From assembly GCA_030647325.1 (NCBI GenBank), contig JAUSJN010000034.1, positions 1 through 34,456 of the forward strand: a stretch of 34,456 nt of DNA, written 5' to 3'. Positions 7,216 through 32,563 of the stretch are shown here, piece by piece (the first letter of the stretch is position 1; every line of letters starts with the position of its first letter). The stretch comes from Nanobdellota archaeon. GTDB taxonomy: Archaea > Nanobdellota > Nanobdellia > Woesearchaeales > GW2011-AR9. Made by a program: the position numbers and the translations under genes. The notes under the pieces are model-generated. The model saw nothing but the letters and a program-made list of their open reading frames with translations, had not been told where the DNA came from and made no database searches.

Positions 7216-10200
7216 TTATTCTGCGGCTATCGGATCGATTTCAATAGATACTGGAACTTCTTCGATAGGAATATTCAACCTGGTGTTATCAAGTCGGGCA
7301 ATAATTTCCGGATCCGTCACCTGATTCTTGCCGAAGCGCAGAGGACCTACTCCCGTCCCTCTAGTGGTCCAGATCTGCTTCACTGCATCATAATCATATT
7401 CTTGGTCAGCTAAGCTAAAGACTCCTGTTTTTGTTTCTACCGCAACCGTCCTCGGAGTCGGTAAACCGATACTTTCAAGCATCTGCAGCTCTTGCGGCGA
7501 GGGCGAGAATTTAAAGTTGGAAGTAGCATCTCCATAGATGTGGTAATCATAACGGAATGCCAGCATCTCATCAGCAAGGCGACCGTCGTCAAGATGACCG
7601 TAATTCGGAGTGGATTTCAGATAATCCCAGGCTTTCCGCATGCCTGGATCATTAGTTGTCCGGACATAATTCACCCAAGCATCTCTCTGTGTCTGATCCA
7701 ATAATGTAGCAAAAGCATGGTGTGTTGTCTCATGTCCGGCCAAGAGCTTCAATTGTTCCTGCGCCAATAATCTTTTAGCCTCTTCCACATCAGTACCTTT
7801 ATATTTGTGAGCGGCTTTTGCCTGATCCAAGACCGATTTTTCATCGGTGAAAATCTGATATCTGATACCTCCTATATCATCTCCTATTTCTTCATAAGCA
7901 CCTAGCACAGAGCTCTGTCTCACACTCACTTGATTGTGGGTCAATCGCAGAGGCTCTACCCCTCTTTTCTTGAACCTTTGATGCAATTCTTTCAAGATAG
8001 GATTAGTCTCAATTCCTTGTACTTCTGGACCTAAGCCGCTTAGGGCGTTATAAGAATCTACAAACCCTTGATGCGATCCGTGGACATTGACGCCTATATC
8101 ATCAAAGTCCGGACCTGCAGCGAGGATGGTGACCTTTTTATCGTTTGCAATCTCATGCAGATATAGTTTTCCTTTAGATACATCATCTATCACTTTAGGT
8201 GAAAGCTTACTGACATCGTTGAGAAATCTCTCTTTAAGCTGGGGATTGGTATTTAGTGCCCCTATGATCAGGTCTTTATCTACACCTTCTGGTACACTGC
8301 CGGTAGCACCTCCAACAAATTTTCCTCTGACTGAATAAATATCACCTGCTTCATCAATGATGTAGAAGTTTGCTTCCGAGCGGACTAAGATACCGCCATC
8401 ATGCCGGTAAGCTTCAAGAACATTTATAGCACCAGTATACCATTCAGGAGCGACATATTCGCTGAAATAAAATCTCTGCCTTGGCGCGCCAAACTCTGTA
8501 AGAGGAACGTTTAGCCTGGCCGCCTCCAAGTGCGCCAGATCCTGTGGATTAATGACTTGCTTTTTTCCAAAGCCAAGAAGTCCTTTGGTGGTCCAGCCTT
8601 CATCTGTAGAATACAGATATTCTTTGCCTCCCAACGTAAAAGCATTATCCTCCTTTCTGGCAGCAAAGGTGCTCCCTAGAGGAACAGTCTCTCCTCTTCC
8701 CACTACATCGAGTAAATTATCCTTTACTTTGCCTGGATCTACTTTTGCACCGGTGCGTTTTATACTTACAGCACCGACAAAATCCTCTACCACGAGCTTT
8801 TCAATTGCTGTTTGATCCAGTGTTGTCATACTGGAGATGGTAGGAATAAGTTCTGTCTTAGTAGTCGCGCCGCTGCTTATGTCTACAGTGGTCAAATATT
8901 TTTTATTCCCTTCAATGGTGACTAAACCTACCTGCTCTACGCCTTCTTTAGTTCTGGTGATCCGAAGCACTTCCCCATTCTCGAGGCTGTCATAGGCTCT
9001 TTGAGCAGCGATGTAATTACTAACAAATCCTTCCGGCCCTTCCTTAAATTTTCCTAAATTTTGTTCTGCAGCAGGTGCTCTTTCAGGGAAATGCGTCTCC
9101 GTCTTTGGAACCTCTCCGACGCCAGAGATTGTCGGAGTAGGAGCTTCAGGAATTTCCGGAACTCTGCAGGCAGCTCCGTAAATCGCTCCGCCGGCAATCA
9201 CGCAACCCTCAACTGTTGTTGATACTCCCTCTGGTTCAAACCGCCAGTCAGCGACATCAATCACAACTATATCGCCTGCTTCATGTTGTACTCCCCTGAT
9301 CAATTGAGGTTCAGTGAGGACTAAAGCTTGTTGATCTCCAGTGATCCAGCCCGCTTCCACTGCGTTCTGAACCTCGGTGTTAAACTTATTCAATTTCGCT
9401 TCTATATCATACTGAAACATTTCATCAGTAGTTAACTCAAAGAGCGGTTTTCCTTCAACTTTCTGAGAAACAAGATACGGGATTCCATCAACTTCATAGA
9501 TACCATAATATTCAGGACAAGAAAAGAATTGACAAACTTCCCGCGCATTTTCAAATTCCGTGAAAAGGCCGTCTACATTGTCACGCACATTTCCTCGCAG
9601 AGGTATTTCTCCAGCTTTTGTTTTGGCGGTCTTGAAAGCAAGATCTTCGCCTACACCGGGCAGGTTGCCTTCAAAGACTACTCCCACTGAACCTTCCCCT
9701 ATTTTTCCTGTAAAGGCAGCATCCGCAGTTTTTACTTCAACGGTGGGGTGATTTCTTTTTATTGATTCTACATCCACGCGCTGCTGGGTATATCCTCGCT
9801 TTATGACTGAAACCTCATCGGCAACCGCAGCCTGATACGCTGGACTAGTGGAAGGAATGCAGGCAGCTCCTCCAGCCAATGCACCACCGATGGAACAGGC
9901 TGGCAGCTCAATACCAAGATCTTCCGGAAGCTGGTCAGGAACTCCGATGATTTCTTTCTCTGGGAAAGCGTTCAGCTCTTCGATAAATAATTCTTGTATG
10001 ATCTCGTTATCATCGACTTCTTTGTTAAACCATAACTTTCTTTCCTGTTTCCAATTGCCGTCGGCACCTCGGAAATATCTTTTTCCTTCCAGCTCGTACA
10101 CCCCTTCTCCAAGATGGGTCGCTTTGGTAGGCCGTTTATAGCCAGGAGGAAGAACACCCATCTCTTTCAACAATTTTAATTCATCATTACTGGGAGTAAA

Positions 10201-13200
10201 AGCAAATTCAGTCAACTCTGGTTTGCCAAAAGCGTGACCGTCCATTCTATATGTAAAGAGCTCTTCTACAATGTGATCTTCCGAAAATCCTAACTCACGA
10301 AGGCCTTGCGCGGCATTCTGGAAGTTAGGATCGCGTCGTACAAAATTAGACCAAACTTCCTTCTGCGCGGGAGGAAGGTGGGTTTGGAAAGCATGGTGAT
10401 AGGTCTCATGTCCTGCCAACGTTTTAATCTGCTTTTGCGCGATAAGCTGTTTCGCTTCTTCAAGGTTATTTCCTGTATAGCCAAAGAATTCCTTTGCATG
10501 GACAAATACTTCGTCATCGTTCTTGAACTGCCTATAGAACATACCTCCATTTTCATAGAAACCCACTACTCCGGATTTACTCGCGCTGCTGGTGCTAAGA
10601 CCAGGATTAGTCAAACGTGGTTCAGGAGTTCCTGTCGCCGCAAACTGTTGATGTAAATATTGAAGAACTGGATTTTCTTGGGTGGTTCTTTCATAGCTTT
10701 GTATGTATTGAGCATGGGAACCATGGGCATTGATCAACTGGTCATCAAAAGCAGGATTTGCTCCATGGACAGGTAAACCTTCCGTTGCAGGATCACGCAG
10801 TAATTCTTCTACATCATTATAATACCCCTCTGGCGCTGCATCCAGAGTAACAGCAGGAGTTACCGCTCTTGCTCCAGAAACAGGTGCTTCTGGAATAGCA
10901 ACTTCCGGAACTCTGCAGGCAGCTCCATAAATCGCTCCGCCGGCAATTACGCAAGCATCTACCTGATCGGATACTCCTATTCCTGTTCTTTCATTTTTTA
11001 TCTGCCAAATCTCACGACCATTTATTTCAAAGCCCTCGCCGGCCATGATATCACCCAATTTATTATTGTAAACTTCATCAATCGTAGCAGGATCTCCAGG
11101 GACGGCAAAGCCGGCATCAATAAGTTTTGCTTGCAATTTCCCTTCCGGTGTTGTGATGACTATAACATTATTCCAATGGAAATCAGCAATTTCAATATTT
11201 TCTGATTTGAGTACCTCAATAAGTTCTTCTACAGCATTTTGTACATCATCTAATTCTCCTTCATTCCTTGCTCTCCTAAGGACTCTTTGCGCTTCCTTAA
11301 GTTCCGCTGGATTTTTAGAAGTTCTATAACGAGAAGAATAGGTCTCGTATTCTGCTCTGGCATCTAGAGATAATCTATCTAAAATCGTTTCTTCCAGGCT
11401 TTTTCCTTCTAATTTTTCAGCGATGTAATATGTTTCTTCTGCCTGATACACCCGCGGAGCAGCGTCTCTCTCAGCAAGGCGATTTAAGTAATCAGACTGC
11501 TCGGGAAAAGAGTTGACGATGCCTTCCAGCCCTGGGTCAGTGTTCCGTACTTTTATGATAGCCGGCTTATCAACTCCGGGCAGGTTTACACGCGCTGCTT
11601 CTGGGATTTCCAGAACGACACCTTCTCCGCCGCGGCCGACAAACAATTCTTCTTTTTTGACGAGCGTTTCCAAAGCAGATTCTTCTAGACGCACACCTTG
11701 GCGTGTATCTAACACATCAACAATATCATTCCAATCATCTTGTCCTGGGACGCGCGGAGGAAGCTTAATTTCAGGAGCTTCTTCAAGTTTAGCTGATGGA
11801 GTTTCTGCAACAGTTCTGCAGGCAGCCAATCCATAAATCGCAGCAGCAGCAAGACTGCAACTATCGACAGCATCAGAGACTAAACTCTCTGGAGTTACTT
11901 CGCCGACTGCTTCCAATCTTCTTGCTTTCACATCATTAGCAGCTGCATACTCGCTGTCGGCAAGAACTTCGAAAAGCTGATCTTCCAATTCCGCCTCTGC
12001 ACGTGCATCGCTGGTGTCCATTCTCAGCAGGAGCTGATTTCCTTCTTCAACCTCTATCCGCAGCTGCGCAGGAGCTTCTTCAGGAACTTCAAATTTTAAT
12101 CCTGTTCCTTCCGGCTCTAGACGTACGGCAGGATTGCTGGCTAGGTCATCAATCTTCCAGACTCCATCTGCGCCGACCGCATCATATACTTCATCCCCGC
12201 TTCCGGAAACTTGCGCCTGCTGTAATCTCTCTCGGATCGCATTTTTACTTCGTTCAACTTTTCTATCAAGATATGCGTCATCTAATTTTTCCGCAGCAAC
12301 TTCCAAACTTTCTTTTGCCGCATCTAATCTTGCTCGGGAAAGAACTGCTTCCGGCGTGTCACCTACTAGTCTGGCCTTGCCGCTCGCGTCAGCGAAATTA
12401 TCTGCTGCTTTTCTGAAATCATTTTCTGCGGTAAGCACTTCTTCGCCTGGGCCGGCGCCAAATACTGTTCCAAAAGTAGCATCCCAACCTTTACGCACTA
12501 CGCCGCGGTTTGGTCCGGCGAGATTGGAAACCCGCAACAGAGCATTCAGCTCATCAATGTTGTTAGCGGATTGCGTTATCGCTTGCTGTGCATCAGAAAT
12601 TGTGACTAACGATTGCCCTTCCGCAAGAGTATCTCCGCTGGCGCGTGCAGCGGTTAATTCCCGCTGCGCTTGGTTAAGATTTTGAGTTTGCGCAGCGATA
12701 GTATCAATTTCAAGATTTCTTGCTTTAGCAACATCACGGTCAAATTTTCCCAAAGGAGTATTCACTGCTCTCTTGATCTTTTGATATTTACTGGCCTGCT
12801 GTCCGGCTTTAATCTCAGCATCAAGAGCGGCTTTCGCAGCCTCTACTGCTTTCCTTGCTTCCGCGGCAGCTTCTACGGTATCGGCTGCTCTCTCTGCTGC
12901 TTTTGCTGCGGCAAATATTTCTCTGGAACCTTTCGAAGCAAATCTATATGCATCAACTGCTGTTCCAGCGGCATCGACTGCTTTCCTTACTTTACTTATT
13001 TTCTGTAAGAGATCAAATGCCACTAGGGGAGCGCCTACTACCACTTCGGCAACATCAAAGACAGCAAGCGCATCAAAACTGGCGATGGCCATATCCCTAA
13101 ATGTTTCTTCTGTCTCTCTTGTATATGTAACGCCGGTTCTCTCCAGACCGCCAGCAATAGATTTTCCAATCGTTTCACCAGTATAAACACCGATGATGTC

Positions 13201-16200
13201 CCCTAAAACATTCTGCTTTAGAGTATCAAGTTGAAGTTGCACATTCTTAGCTCCCGCGCAGTCAGGACAGGCCGCAACCGCTTCCTGATATTTTGCTGCC
13301 GCTTCTCCCGCAAGTTTACCCCGATTAAATCGCTGCACAGTCTCCGCATCTCTGGCGATGACGCTAAATTCAAGTTCACGCCGTTCTGCGGCATATTCTT
13401 GCTGGCGTTGATCAATAAAAGCAGACCTATCTAATACATTCATGGTCTGCATCAATTTCTTATCTCCTTCCGAAAAGATGGATCTGCTCAAGTCGAATTC
13501 TAACAAGACTACCGCCGGTTCATCACCGACACTGATCTGCAGCTGATCGGAAGAAGAAAGTACGCTCCCATCAGCGCCTCGAACAATTCCCGCTCGAGCA
13601 TCAGCAAAAGCTTGACTGGCAGAAAGACCTTTCTTTTCGTAATCTCTGAGCTTACCCCGCAAACTATGGAGCTGCTGTATTTGCCGTTCCTGTTCCTCAA
13701 AAGCTTGTTGATCAAGATCATCTCTAACTTTAGTAATACCTAACGCATCGGCAGCTGCTTTCTCTGAACTGTCAGTGAGAAAACCAAATGAGGCCTCCGC
13801 TAACCTACCTGCTCCGGTAACTGTGCCGAGAGCTCCGGCAGTACTGGTAAGATCAAAATTTAATCCTTTCCAAGCTCGGGAAATTTCTTTTCCTGCTCCA
13901 AGATCTTCTGCCTCTGTTTTCAACCGCGCTTGATGAGCAGCTTTTTCTAAGTCCTTTTCACGCTGTTCTAACACCCGGTTAGCATAGTCAGTCCGGGCCA
14001 GCCGCGCTTTTTTCAATTTCACTAACTCTGGATCCAGCAACGCTTCAGGGACTTCCTCAATCCCTTTCAGCTTTTGCGCCAATTCGGGATTATCTGCTTC
14101 AATTCCTTGTAACATCGCGCCGGCTTCGTTGCCGTAACCATAATTGTACAGCAAGGCTACCTGATCAAGGGTTTCATCTCTTTGCTGGCGTACTGCGCGC
14201 CCGGCAATATCTTGAGAAACCTTATCTGATATTACGCTTTGTCCTGCTAAAACAGATACATCTATGGTCTCAAGCACGACTACATTTCCATCTTTATCTT
14301 TCCCTAATCTTACTACTTCCTTGATGCCCTCTTGCGTCGCTAGGTTCGGTCCGCTGAGGATAGTATTCACTTCTTGGTATTTTCCTGCCGAGAGAGCGAT
14401 TTCTGCAGCGACATCATCTTTTCCTTCTAACCGATATTTTTCTATGAGAGCCTGGTTCTGTGATTCAAATGCCTTGAGGTTGGTATTTAACTGCTCAACT
14501 TTTCTTTCAGTTTCAGTTGTAGCTTGAGCGTCGAACCGGAAATCTTCTCGAAGTTGATAAATCTCTGAATCTAATTTATTATCAAAAAAATCGCGGGGCG
14601 CATGTTTATTGATGAGGGAGATGACATACCCTGGATCGGCCTCATACCTCTCCCAATCAATTGCTTTGAATACTGCTCCTCCACCACCGCCACCCAACCA
14701 TTCTTTTTCTAACTTAGCGCGAATCTCAGAACGATAACCATTCACTCTTCCCTTCTGGACTCCTAAAGTATGAGATAAACCTACTTTTCTTTTTTCACCA
14801 CTATCAATTCTTCTTTTAGTATCTTCCAGTTCTTTTTTATCCGTGGCATCAATACCTTTATCTTCCCTTTTTGCTCTCTCATCAGCTTCTCTCTTCAGCT
14901 TATCTATTTCCGCTTTTACAACCAAGGCTTTCCAGCGGTTGTAATTTGCCGTCCTGGTCTTCAGGATTTTATTCTCTTCTTCTTTAGCGGCCTTGAGATC
15001 TTTTTCACTGACTGAACAGTATGATGTACCTTGACAGGCAGCCAGAAGACCTTCAACTTCCTTCACCCGCATCCGGGATAAATCCCATTTTGCCCTGGTA
15101 AGCTCATCCACATCTGCGCCCAAGCCTTTGTTGACGATCTGCTGGTATTTCTCAGCATCTTCCCTAGTCTTAAAATTCCCAAAGGCATCCAGTTCAATTC
15201 CGTATTTCTTATACGACTCTTTCGCTTTCTGAGTTGTTTCAATAATAGTCTGAAGTTCCCGTGCATATTTCTGATCAGAGATAGCATCAAGGTTCAAGCC
15301 ACTTTCCAGCAGGAATTTTTTCTTTAACGCTGCATATCCCGGATCATCTTTCTCAAACGAAAGCGTCGATAATTCATTGAATTTTCCTTCTTCAATCAAG
15401 CCAGCCAAGCGGTTGACTTCAGCAGCATTCTGTTCTGATACCAGGACTGCTTCGTTGCCTAAGGCCTTACCGATGGTAAGCGGATATTCTATTTTTTTGA
15501 CGGCGGCTTCAGGATTTTTTGGATCAACAAACTCATAAGCAGCTCCTAATTCAGCCGTGCTTGGATCGCGGGAGAGTTTAAAATTACATTCTAATTCTCC
15601 GCAAGGAACAGAAACCAACAGATTGTTGCCGATGGAAACTTCTTGACCATCTTGTAGAATCTGCTTGCTCAGAAATCCTAAGTCCTGTCGGCTTGGCTCA
15701 AATTTTATTTTTCCCTTTTCATCCACATCTACAGTGAGCCGCACACTGCCGCGATTTGCTCCAGTAAAAACTCCCTGGATCCCCGTTTCCTGAGCGATAT
15801 GGATTGATTTCTGAATGACCATCGCTTCCCCGGCGTGACAATCAAAGCATTCTGCTCTCAGTACATCGGCTTGATCCGGACGGAAATTATCGTGGGTGAC
15901 TTTAATTACCGCTCCGTCTTGATTGGTAGATATACCTTCCTTGAATTGATCATTCTTAAATTCGGCCTGGCCGCGGACATTGGTCTGGGTTCTCGCCGAA
16001 AACTGGGCATCTAATTCTGACAGGCCATTTAGACCTCGGTAACTGAAGGTATCTTGGAGCGGTTTGGCGGAATTGCCACGAGCATCGTAAAGACTTACTG
16101 CTACGGCACCTTTGGAAGTGACGGTTATCGCTTTAGAATCAGTATCCTTGTTGATCCATACTTCAGCATTATTTCCTTGCAATGGCGGCTGGGCTGGCTT

Positions 16201-17427
16201 GCGTAATTGTCGAGCTTGTTCACGAAGCTGTTCTGCTTTGTTTTCTTCAGTAGGCTGAGGCTTGCTCGGATCTAGATAAAATGAAGAAGCAGAAGAGACT
16301 TGATCAAGATTTATTTTTAAGATACTTGCTTTGCTTTTATCTTTATCAGCCAGATAACGAGCATCCCATTGCCCTTGCGTAGATACGCCGATACAAGCTC
16401 CTGCTTCCGGACAAGCATTCTTATCGACGACGACGGTCTGTTTTCCTCCGAGACCGACATCCCATGCTTGAATTTTGGTTTCTTTTTTGCTATAACGTCC
16501 GTCCAAGAATAATCTGGAGGTGATTACCTCAGCATTCTCAGCATCAAGATCGCCATTGTAACTTATGATCAACTTTCCGTCATGATTGATAAACTGCGCA
16601 TAATCCCCTTTGGTGTTGACTAATCCTGAGGCAGGCCCATCAACAGTCACTTTTCCTGCATCAAAGGTGAAGGTGACTTGCGCGTCAGCAGGAATCTCAA
16701 ATCGCTGCTGCCCGGTAGGGAGTTGAAAGGTAAAGCTTCCTTTTTCCCGATCATAAGAGACAGTTTTAGCCTCAGCGCCGGCGACAGAAACTTTTTGTTC
16801 TTTCTCTTCAATTTTTCTGGAGATCTCAAAACCGCCGGCGGTGGAAGTGATGCCGGTGATCGATTGATCGTCCTTAAATTCAGCCAGCACTAAATTGGTC
16901 AATCCATTCTTGAGCATCCCTTTTTCCTGGTCAAAGGAAAAATCATCAGCGATCTGATCAAATTTATAGGGAGCGCTGAAGGTGTTGATGAAATATTGCT
17001 GCGCCGCGTTTTTTTCAGCAGTTCCTTTCTGTAAAAAATCGTGTAATCCAGTCGGCTGTTTAAAGAAAACCGTATCTGCTTGCCCATTCGCTCCCCAGTT
17101 GGCAGGGTCAGCATAATATTGTTCAGCAAATTCTTGCTGGTAATTTTTTAGGTCTCCTAAATATATTCCCTGCTGCTGTGGCGGCAAGTGATTGAAATTT
17201 TCCAGAGTCGGATTGGGCACCTTGGCTAGATCCGCCGCGGTAGGGTTAGGTAGATTATTGAAATTTTCCGGAGTCGGATCATTATTGAAGGCATTTTCAT
17301 ATTGAACTTCCTGATCCTGTGGAGAAGATTGATCCGAGGGAAATTCATCCACTGCCAGAGAGAAAGGACTGATAAACATAAGATAGATGAAAAATAGTGC
17401 AGCTAATTGGTTTATTTTATTTTTCAT
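7216..17427 (-). CDS. giant secreted multidomain protein (3403 aa): coiled-coil regions, kinase-like domain(s), two HExxH zincin-like domains, repeated modules
   Basis: Uninterrupted ORF; signal peptide MKNKINQLAALFFIYLMFISPFSLAVDE; HETYHH and HETTHH motifs; GRGGEGVV...IADFHWNNVIV...LIDAG kinase-like motifs; overlaps the upstream CDS by 11 nt. Confidence 0.9.
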   Translation of the reverse strand: MKNKINQLAALFFIYLMFISPFSLAVDEFPSDQSSPQDQEVQYENAFNNDPTPENFNNLPNPTAADLAKVPNPTLENFNHLPPQQQGIYLGDLKNYQQEFAEQYYADPANWGANGQADTVFFKQPTGLHDFLQKGTAEKNAAQQYFINTFSAPYKFDQIADDFSFDQEKGMLKNGLTNLVLAEFKDDQSITGITSTAGGFEISRKIEEKEQKVSVAGAEAKTVSYDREKGSFTFQLPTGQQRFEIPADAQVTFTFDAGKVTVDGPASGLVNTKGDYAQFINHDGKLIISYNGDLDAENAEVITSRLFLDGRYSKKETKIQAWDVGLGGKQTVVVDKNACPEAGACIGVSTQGQWDARYLADKDKSKASILKINLDQVSSASSFYLDPSKPQPTEENKAEQLREQARQLRKPAQPPLQGNNAEVWINKDTDSKAITVTSKGAVAVSLYDARGNSAKPLQDTFSYRGLNGLSELDAQFSARTQTNVRGQAEFKNDQFKEGISTNQDGAVIKVTHDNFRPDQADVLRAECFDCHAGEAMVIQKSIHIAQETGIQGVFTGANRGSVRLTVDVDEKGKIKFEPSRQDLGFLSKQILQDGQEVSIGNNLLVSVPCGELECNFKLSRDPSTAELGAAYEFVDPKNPEAAVKKIEYPLTIGKALGNEAVLVSEQNAAEVNRLAGLIEEGKFNELSTLSFEKDDPGYAALKKKFLLESGLNLDAISDQKYARELQTIIETTQKAKESYKKYGIELDAFGNFKTREDAEKYQQIVNKGLGADVDELTRAKWDLSRMRVKEVEGLLAACQGTSYCSVSEKDLKAAKEEENKILKTRTANYNRWKALVVKAEIDKLKREADERAKREDKGIDATDKKELEDTKRRIDSGEKRKVGLSHTLGVQKGRVNGYRSEIRAKLEKEWLGGGGGGAVFKAIDWERYEADPGYVISLINKHAPRDFFDNKLDSEIYQLREDFRFDAQATTETERKVEQLNTNLKAFESQNQALIEKYRLEGKDDVAAEIALSAGKYQEVNTILSGPNLATQEGIKEVVRLGKDKDGNVVVLETIDVSVLAGQSVISDKVSQDIAGRAVRQQRDETLDQVALLYNYGYGNEAGAMLQGIEADNPELAQKLKGIEEVPEALLDPELVKLKKARLARTDYANRVLEQREKDLEKAAHQARLKTEAEDLGAGKEISRAWKGLNFDLTSTAGALGTVTGAGRLAEASFGFLTDSSEKAAADALGITKVRDDLDQQAFEEQERQIQQLHSLRGKLRDYEKKGLSASQAFADARAGIVRGADGSVLSSSDQLQISVGDEPAVVLLEFDLSRSIFSEGDKKLMQTMNVLDRSAFIDQRQQEYAAERRELEFSVIARDAETVQRFNRGKLAGEAAAKYQEAVAACPDCAGAKNVQLQLDTLKQNVLGDIIGVYTGETIGKSIAGGLERTGVTYTRETEETFRDMAIASFDALAVFDVAEVVVGAPLVAFDLLQKISKVRKAVDAAGTAVDAYRFASKGSREIFAAAKAAERAADTVEAAAEARKAVEAAKAALDAEIKAGQQASKYQKIKRAVNTPLGKFDRDVAKARNLEIDTIAAQTQNLNQAQRELTAARASGDTLAEGQSLVTISDAQQAITQSANNIDELNALLRVSNLAGPNRGVVRKGWDATFGTVFGAGPGEEVLTAENDFRKAADNFADASGKARLVGDTPEAVLSRARLDAAKESLEVAAEKLDDAYLDRKVERSKNAIRERLQQAQVSGSGDEVYDAVGADGVWKIDDLASNPAVRLEPEGTGLKFEVPEEAPAQLRIEVEEGNQLLLRMDTSDARAEAELEDQLFEVLADSEYAAANDVKARRLEAVGEVTPESLVSDAVDSCSLAAAAIYGLAACRTVAETPSAKLEEAPEIKLPPRVPGQDDWNDIVDVLDTRQGVRLEESALETLVKKEELFVGRGGEGVVLEIPEAARVNLPGVDKPAIIKVRNTDPGLEGIVNSFPEQSDYLNRLAERDAAPRVYQAEETYYIAEKLEGKSLEETILDRLSLDARAEYETYSSRYRTSKNPAELKEAQRVLRRARNEGELDDVQNAVEELIEVLKSENIEIADFHWNNVIVITTPEGKLQAKLIDAGFAVPGDPATIDEVYNNKLGDIMAGEGFEINGREIWQIKNERTGIGVSDQVDACVIAGGAIYGAACRVPEVAIPEAPVSGARAVTPAVTLDAAPEGYYNDVEELLRDPATEGLPVHGANPAFDDQLINAHGSHAQYIQSYERTTQENPVLQYLHQQFAATGTPEPRLTNPGLSTSSASKSGVVGFYENGGMFYRQFKNDDEVFVHAKEFFGYTGNNLEEAKQLIAQKQIKTLAGHETYHHAFQTHLPPAQKEVWSNFVRRDPNFQNAAQGLRELGFSEDHIVEELFTYRMDGHAFGKPELTEFAFTPSNDELKLLKEMGVLPPGYKRPTKATHLGEGVYELEGKRYFRGADGNWKQERKLWFNKEVDDNEIIQELFIEELNAFPEKEIIGVPDQLPEDLGIELPACSIGGALAGGAACIPSTSPAYQAAVADEVSVIKRGYTQQRVDVESIKRNHPTVEVKTADAAFTGKIGEGSVGVVFEGNLPGVGEDLAFKTAKTKAGEIPLRGNVRDNVDGLFTEFENAREVCQFFSCPEYYGIYEVDGIPYLVSQKVEGKPLFELTTDEMFQYDIEAKLNKFNTEVQNAVEAGWITGDQQALVLTEPQLIRGVQHEAGDIVVIDVADWRFEPEGVSTTVEGCVIAGGAIYGAACRVPEIPEAPTPTISGVGEVPKTETHFPERAPAAEQNLGKFKEGPEGFVSNYIAAQRAYDSLENGEVLRITRTKEGVEQVGLVTIEGNKKYLTTVDISSGATTKTELIPTISSMTTLDQTAIEKLVVEDFVGAVSIKRTGAKVDPGKVKDNLLDVVGRGETVPLGSTFAARKEDNAFTLGGKEYLYSTDEGWTTKGLLGFGKKQVINPQDLAHLEAARLNVPLTEFGAPRQRFYFSEYVAPEWYTGAINVLEAYRHDGGILVRSEANFYIIDEAGDIYSVRGKFVGGATGSVPEGVDKDLIIGALNTNPQLKERFLNDVSKLSPKVIDDVSKGKLYLHEIANDKKVTILAAGPDFDDIGVNVHGSHQGFVDSYNALSGLGPEVQGIETNPILKELHQRFKKRGVEPLRLTHNQVSVRQSSVLGAYEEIGDDIGGIRYQIFTDEKSVLDQAKAAHKYKGTDVEEAKRLLAQEQLKLLAGHETTHHAFATLLDQTQRDAWVNYVRTTNDPGMRKAWDYLKSTPNYGHLDDGRLADEMLAFRYDYHIYGDATSNFKFSPSPQELQMLESIGLPTPRTVAVETKTGVFSLADQEYDYDAVKQIWTTRGTGVGPLRFGKNQVTDPEIIARLDNTRLNIPIEEVPVSIEIDPIAAE

Positions 17428-32248: not shown

Positions 32249-32322
32249 AGGTTATAAATAAAAAGCCCTCGGCGAGCAAACAAAAGGACTTTGCCTTTTG
32301 AGCTCACCTCAGTCTTTGTCAA

Positions 32323-32427
32323 AGCCCTCGGCGAGGATTGAACTCGCGACCTCGTCCTTACCAAGGACGCGCCCTATTGCGCTTCGCGCAAACTTTACTG
32401 CGCAAAGTACCGCTAGGCCACGAGGGC
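32323..32427 (-). tRNA. tRNA-Thr(GGT) with ~31-nt insertion in the D-loop
   Basis: Acceptor GCCCTCG/CGAGGGC; anticodon arm CGTCC-TTGGTAA-GGACG; T-arm GCGAG-TTCAATC-CTCGC. Removing 32377..32407 restores D-arm GGCCTAGCGGTATAGGGC. Confidence 0.85.
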
Positions 32428-32431
32428 ATGG

Positions 32432-32563
32432 TGCCGGGGAAGGGACTTTCAAGCCACAACCACAGTTGCAGGCAATTTGAACCCCCGAACCCACTAAGAG
32501 ACAGGATGACTTATGTTTTGCAACTTAAGTCCTGCGCATTTGGCCAAGCTTTGCTACCCCGGC
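32432..32563 (-). tRNA. tRNA-Leu(TAA) with anticodon-loop intron (32508..32523) and ~30-nt T-arm insertion (32445..32474)
   Basis: Acceptor GCCGGGG/CCCCGGC-A; anticodon stem CAGGA/TCCTG with CTTAAG^A; T-arm GGGGG-TTCAAAT-[insertion]-CCCTT; followed by CCA in the DNA. Confidence 0.8.

Follow-up and report, generated by a model that had tools for sequence, protein, structure and literature searches.

The window, that is the whole 34,456-nucleotide stretch of DNA that was analysed, carries a tRNA-Leu(UAA) gene on its minus strand, near the end of the 34-kb contig (C67 of the genome). The assembly comprises 958 kb in 74 contigs and is 90% complete; an L15e-like protein encoded in the window is 88% identical to that of a MAG named 'Nanoarchaeota archaeon' and 83% identical to that of a Ca. 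Woesearchaeota MAG, which marks the host as a DPANN archaeon of woesearchaeal affinity. Read from the sequence, the tRNA gene begins with the acceptor strand GCCGGGG, the D arm and CAGGA-CTTAAG, is interrupted by a 16-nt intron, resumes with A-TCCTG and a long variable arm, and closes with GGGGG-TTCAAA, a 30-nt insert, T-CCCTT and CCCCGGC-A-CCA. Two bases past this CCA starts a tRNA-Thr(GGU) gene. The features are as follows, with their basis in brackets:

32429..32563, minus strand: tRNA-Leu(UAA) gene with two predicted introns (sequence reading; ARAGORN 89-nt tRNA-Leu(taa) once both are out)
32525-32527, minus strand: anticodon TAA of tRNA-Leu(UAA) (sequence reading)
32508..32523, minus strand: predicted anticodon-loop intron of 16 nt, TTGCAAAACATAAGTC, position 37/38 (ARAGORN i(41,16) with only the T insert removed)
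32476..32486, minus strand: 5' exon half of the putative splice motif, T stem GGGGG (32482-32486) and T loop TTCAAA (32476-32481) (sequence)
32446..32475, minus strand: predicted T-loop intron of 30 nt, TTGCCTGCAACTGTGGTTGTGGCTTGAAAG, position 59/60 (fold, ARAGORN, orthologues, covariation)
32433..32445, minus strand: 3' exon half of the putative splice motif, T60 (32445), T stem CCCTT (32440-32444) and acceptor CCCCGGC (32433-32439) (sequence, ARAGORN)
32432, minus strand: discriminator A of tRNA-Leu(UAA) (sequence reading)
32429-32431, minus strand: encoded CCA of tRNA-Leu(UAA) (sequence reading)
32323..32427, minus strand: tRNA-Thr(GGU) with a predicted D-loop intron at about 32375-32407 (partial Rfam match 32329-32386; relatives)

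The tRNA-Leu(UAA) gene and its two introns

An earlier, sequence-only reading had proposed that about 30 nt interrupt the gene between the T loop and the 3' strand of the T stem, and that a second intron lies in the same tRNA. The interruption is indeed seen in the minus-strand sequence, with both helices ascribed to it (GCC-t-GCAAC/GTTGT-GGC and TTCAA/TTGAA), and the two-intron gene is borne out by ARAGORN, which needs both inserts taken out before it reports a complete 89-nt tRNA-Leu(taa). With the T insert alone removed, it returns a 105-nt gene that includes the 16-nt intron, whose central helix is CTTA/TAAG with the bulges AG^T and TC^A; with the T insert retained, ARAGORN gives no complete tRNA. 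The unspliced gene in the window was accordingly missed by ARAGORN, as it was by Rfam at the gathering threshold; a very permissive ARAGORN setting yielded 120 calls on the window, mostly spurious. The window's own genes make frequent use of UUA (138 of 7,300 codons), so that a tRNA-Leu(UAA) is needed.

The sequence-only reading was right about the insert and one base off about its boundary. It had been placed at 32445-32474 (position 60/61), but a repeated T allows two placements one base apart, 60/61 or 59/60. The latter placement, 32446-32475, fits better: each cut then follows the first two bases of a bulge (AA^T and AG^T), and the product matches intron-free relatives (TTCAAATCCC). The comparison with related genomes, which had been recommended as a check, supplied the intron-free orthologues that fix this boundary.

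The T stem and T loop serve as the exon half of a bulge-helix-bulge (BHB)-like motif formed with the insert. The minimum free energy (MFE) structure of the T arm with its insert is a BHB-like fold at -16.7 kcal/mol (z = -2.1), matched by 7 of 200 shuffles, and the thermodynamic support taken alone is modest; as folding by itself is too weak (z about -2), the far stronger comparative evidence was used in its place. In MFE folding of the whole pre-tRNA the cloverleaf was not obtained, which weakens the case little, because intron-containing tRNAs often misfold in such predictions. The junctions form a relaxed version of the motif, as judged from the MFE fold and from the R57:Y covariation described below. 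On its 3' side the Leu intron conforms to the strict hBHBh' arrangement (4-bp central helix, 3-nt bulges, nothing unpaired opposite), from which its relaxed 5' side departs: there the bulge is faced by one base or, as A58 is able to pair as well, the helix has 5 bp.

Two other explanations of the insert were tried and dropped. A permuted or split tRNA was set aside since all gene parts are in order and adjacent, and a group I self-splicing intron since the insert has 30 nt, against a core of a few hundred, and the window gave no Rfam intron match.

Orthologues of the gene

When 60 related genomes were searched with the Leu(UAA) gene, 30 loci emerged. The T arm is interrupted in ten of them, namely in this genome, the two same-genus relatives and seven more, and reads through in 20, some with the sequence TTCAAATCCC; one locus (L105), which a script had scored as interrupted owing to a single T-stem mismatch, was counted by eye as uninterrupted. 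The anticodon intron is present in 21 of the 30 and missing from nine. As the presence patterns differ across the orthologues, the two introns come and go independently. The same-genus relatives G001 and G002 possess the same gene with the same two introns at 92-93% identity, and the hairpin of the T-loop insert shows compensatory changes, with GCAAC/GTTGT in this genome, GCTAC/GTAGT in G001 and GCAAT/GTTGC in G002.

These relatives also bear on the possibility that the gene is a decayed copy, the functional tRNA-Leu(UAA) lying in the missing tenth of the genome. An assembly of such completeness, in so many contigs, leaves room for this; decay is hardly to be reconciled with a gene whose two introns and compensatory changes are shared within the genus, and whose acceptor, D, anticodon and T stems are all intact after splicing (ARAGORN). 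The sequence-only reading had named an uninterrupted Leu(UAA) copy as the finding that would speak against it. A search of the 90%-complete assembly with the gene found none, the sole other match being 19 nt long, and no second full match turned up in this genome, G001 or G002. A decayed copy is thus highly improbable.

T-loop introns across the order

Inserts of the same kind were sought in 145 related genomes with the pattern GTTCRAAN{8,38}YGAAAGTC, the reversed pattern serving as control. In the window's family 134 matches stand against 23 for the control, and in a phylum-wide sample the order gave 283 against 109 in 124 genomes. The other orders of the class, pooled, showed no enrichment (26 against 35 in 69 genomes) for this strict pattern, which is blind to introns with other 3' ends; repeated related inserts do occur nonetheless in three of their genomes (G149, G216 and G240). 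A separate observation concerns L221, L222 and other matches in G216 and G149, two genomes that belong to another order of the class: T-loop inserts built around a similar ATAAGG...CCTTATCAACC core, about 40-50 nt long, are found there several times over.

A perfect five-pair T stem surrounds 23 of 30 pattern-found inserts, and the loci are tRNAs of many kinds. Among the 150 matches listed, exon R57 co-varies with the Y near the intron 3' end: 144 are paired (A:T 103, G:C 30, G:T 11, with A:C in the remaining 6; Fisher p = 1e-16). In a separate filtered set, which includes a few chance matches, R57:Y is Watson-Crick in 37 of 38. With a central helix of T54-R57 and YGAA, cutting behind the first two bases of either bulge (AA^i1 and AG^T60) gives the correct product. 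The 3' side of these predicted introns is regular and the 5' side often relaxed, the commonest layout there being three unpaired bases against one; elsewhere the intron pairs with A58 and A59, which brings the 5' site within a helix. Taken together, candidate T-loop introns recur in many tRNAs across the order.

It can be asked whether the insert is instead kept in the mature tRNA as an enlarged but tolerated T arm. Such an arm would be split within the universal T loop, is absent at the exact 59/60 boundary from 20 of the 30 orthologues, and would have to explain why its 3' end co-varies with exon R57, as expected of a splice helix, and why its length ranges between tRNAs from about 20 to >70 nt. 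Retention is accordingly very improbable. Removal of the insert, in turn, restores a normal tRNA by the measure of both ARAGORN and the intron-free orthologues, and the host has genes for EndA and RtcB. From these lines of sequence evidence the insert is almost certainly an archaeal protein-spliced tRNA intron at position 59/60 in the T loop of tRNA-Leu(UAA).

Splicing enzymes and proposed pathway

The genome encodes one EndA with both Pfam domains and one RtcB. A PF01974 match was found in 58 of 60 relatives, nearly always exactly one, mostly in open frames of 175-275 aa; in nearly all of the 60 genomes no second EndA subunit was found with PF01974, a query sensitive enough to recover the diverged N. 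equitans beta chain from its sequence. By its sequence the enzyme would be of the alpha4 type, a single gene of about 180-200 aa with N- and C-terminal domains and no second subunit; the marks of (alpha-beta)2 or epsilon2 enzymes, namely a second subunit or a fused three-unit protein and a CSL or ASL lysine loop, are lacking. The best full-length structural match is the M. jannaschii alpha4 enzyme (PDB 1a79), with the same domain order, and the N. equitans enzyme comes near it. Where 3p1y_A, in our view the AFU enzyme with its inserted loop, has an insert, the woesearchaeal enzyme is just 2 aa longer than that of M. jannaschii. An Arg within RVAHS and a C-terminal Trp are invariant in eight woesearchaeal sequences, the Trp aligning with that of N. 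equitans and of 2cv8_A. The AlphaFold model has a mean pLDDT of 62.7, with a poor C-terminal half.

As to the pathway, we infer cleavage and ligation in the following order. In the pre-tRNA the T stem would form the outer helix, and exon bases T54 T55 C56 R57 would pair with the intron 3' end Y-G-A-A as the central helix; A58 A59^i1 and A G^T60 would be the bulges and the remainder of the intron a hairpin. Cleavage by the single EndA would follow the second base of either bulge, ligation of the exons by RtcB would restore TTCAAATCCC, and the 37/38 intron would be removed by the same enzymes. Since the T loop is near-invariant among tRNAs, one intron design ending in YGAAAG^T fits many of them, which, we think, explains both the recurrence across the order and the apparent copying between tRNAs.

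The point against this pathway is that the 5' splice site is often off the strict BHB, while alpha4 and alpha'2 enzymes are reported to accept the canonical BHB only (PMC4033280, PMC6379350), efficient processing of relaxed motifs being ascribed to (alpha-beta)2 and epsilon2 enzymes alone (PMC6379350, PMC4033280). One may therefore suppose that the inserts are introns removed not by EndA alone, with an undetected second subunit or a different nuclease at work, as a single EndA of alpha4 appearance confronted with many relaxed T-loop motifs would invite. The T-stem outer helix, the 4-bp central helix and the two-sided bulges have the geometry of an EndA substrate, and the near-universal single PF01974 gene, found with so sensitive a query, makes a hidden subunit unlikely. 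Such another remover is improbable on balance, and processing by the single EndA is preferred. Its Arg and Trp resemble the pair reported for broad-specificity types, at a position described as variable (PMC12397907); compensation for the missing loop by these residues is only a lead.

Introns in other tRNAs, copying and nearby repeats

The sequence-only reading had also placed a tRNA with a noncanonical intron beside the Leu gene and suggested expanded intron use in this genome, and both points held. The neighbour is tRNA-Thr(GGU) with its D-loop intron; the insert is absent from the G001 orthologue and present at the same place in that of G012. In a partial inventory of 18 tRNA genes only Phe and Cys are intron-free, and at least 8 genes appear by eye to have noncanonical introns: Leu(UAA), Thr(GGU), Thr(UGU), Gly(UCC), Val(UAC), Glu(UUC), Gln(UUG), Pro(UGG) and the tRNA at L014. 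Those of the 59/60 kind measure 30 nt in Leu, 50 nt in Val(UAC), 71 nt in Gly(UCC) and roughly 170 nt at L014. The tRNA-Thr(UGU) gene (L011, G000:C57) has an apparent canonical intron together with a 20-nt intron at about 53/54, the junction of T stem and T loop.

One relative (G029) has T-loop introns that are 86-95% identical in its Arg, Pro, Ser and Gln tRNAs (isotypes assigned by eye from the anticodon loop), against 47-57% for the tRNA bodies, and related intron sequences recur between tRNAs in G001, G002 and G011. Judged by sequence identity alone and in few genomes, T-loop introns thus appear to have been copied between tRNAs.

Several further observations concern these and other tRNA genes. 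At L196 (G002:C6) a T arm with a T-loop intron is closely preceded by an otherwise similar one that is intron-free, which suggests a tRNA duplication in which one copy has the intron and the other lacks it. The D-loop intron of tRNA-Thr (32375-32407) begins CTTTGCG, and similar inserts follow GGTA in the D loops of other tRNAs from relatives (L112, L113, L142), so D-loop introns may be copied between tRNAs too. A 15-bp direct repeat of the tRNA-Thr 3' end, AAAGCCCTCGGCGAG, stands at 32262-32276 and 32321-32335, the extra copy 59 bases downstream, an arrangement of the kind that a short element would leave on inserting at the end of a tRNA and duplicating that end. Fragments of tRNA 3' ends and similar short sequences (GTCACGCC... 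and AACGAT...TTTTC) follow several tRNA genes (L003, downstream of L017, L103, L119) and occur also inside the long L014 intron; these tRNA-linked sequences are possibly a small repeated element. Elsewhere in the window, 7216-17427 on the minus strand is a single 3,403-aa open frame with repeated blocks that adjoins related shorter frames.

Relation to known introns and implications

Position 59/60 is among the known noncanonical archaeal tRNA intron sites, and canonical and noncanonical introns are known to coexist in one tRNA (PMC4090602). The Leu(UAA) gene shares this site and this combination with the noncanonical BHB introns of Crenarchaeota and Nanoarchaeota, and differs from them in its woesearchaeal DPANN host and in the shared 3' splice consensus YGAAAG^T. 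The locus itself is thus ordinary archaeal biology in a little-studied lineage, its class of site being known from Crenarchaeota. In the literature searched, mostly outside subscription journals, no description of woesearchaeal tRNA introns was found, Woesearchaeota and tRNA introns being mentioned together only with regard to group I introns. Intron transposition was described for Thermoproteales in 2010 and, so far as it is cited in PMC4090602 and PMC4033280, it likewise involves near-identical introns shared by tRNAs of differing isotype in a single genome; the present case differs in its T-loop site and unrelated lineage, and concerns few genomes and sequence identity alone.

As to the enzymes, (alpha-beta)2 with its Crenarchaea-specific loop and epsilon2 with its ARMAN-specific loop likewise occur in genomes rich in irregular introns (PMC6379350, PMC12397907). 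The woesearchaeal EndA is like these broad-specificity types in its Arg and C-terminal Trp, and unlike them in that it is one short subunit, with no second one found, and is without the inserted loop. M. jannaschii-type alpha4 is reported to act on canonical BHB only (PMC4033280), whereas its woesearchaeal counterpart would need to serve many relaxed motifs. The order-wide intron pattern and this enzyme puzzle are the points of specialist interest.

A broader proposal is tentatively put forward here, with a little less than even confidence: that Woesearchaeales harbour an order-wide, copying class of relaxed-motif T-loop introns, processed by a single-subunit, loop-less, alpha4-like EndA. The intron models of tRNAscan-SE 2.0 were trained on Crenarchaeota/Euryarchaeota and Thaumarchaeota (PMC8450103); given this training scope, and since standard finders miss such genes, tRNAs seemingly absent from reduced DPANN genomes may be interrupted. 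If true, the proposal would break the accepted link of irregular tRNA introns with enzymes bearing the Crenarchaea- or ARMAN-specific loop, perhaps with Arg and Trp clamping the bulge, or with the T stem itself being recognised. One loop-less EndA alongside many relaxed introns in a single order would allow a direct test of the proposed co-evolution between enzyme loop and intron variety, EndA and intron co-evolution being reportedly the subject of work by Kaneta et al. in 2018.
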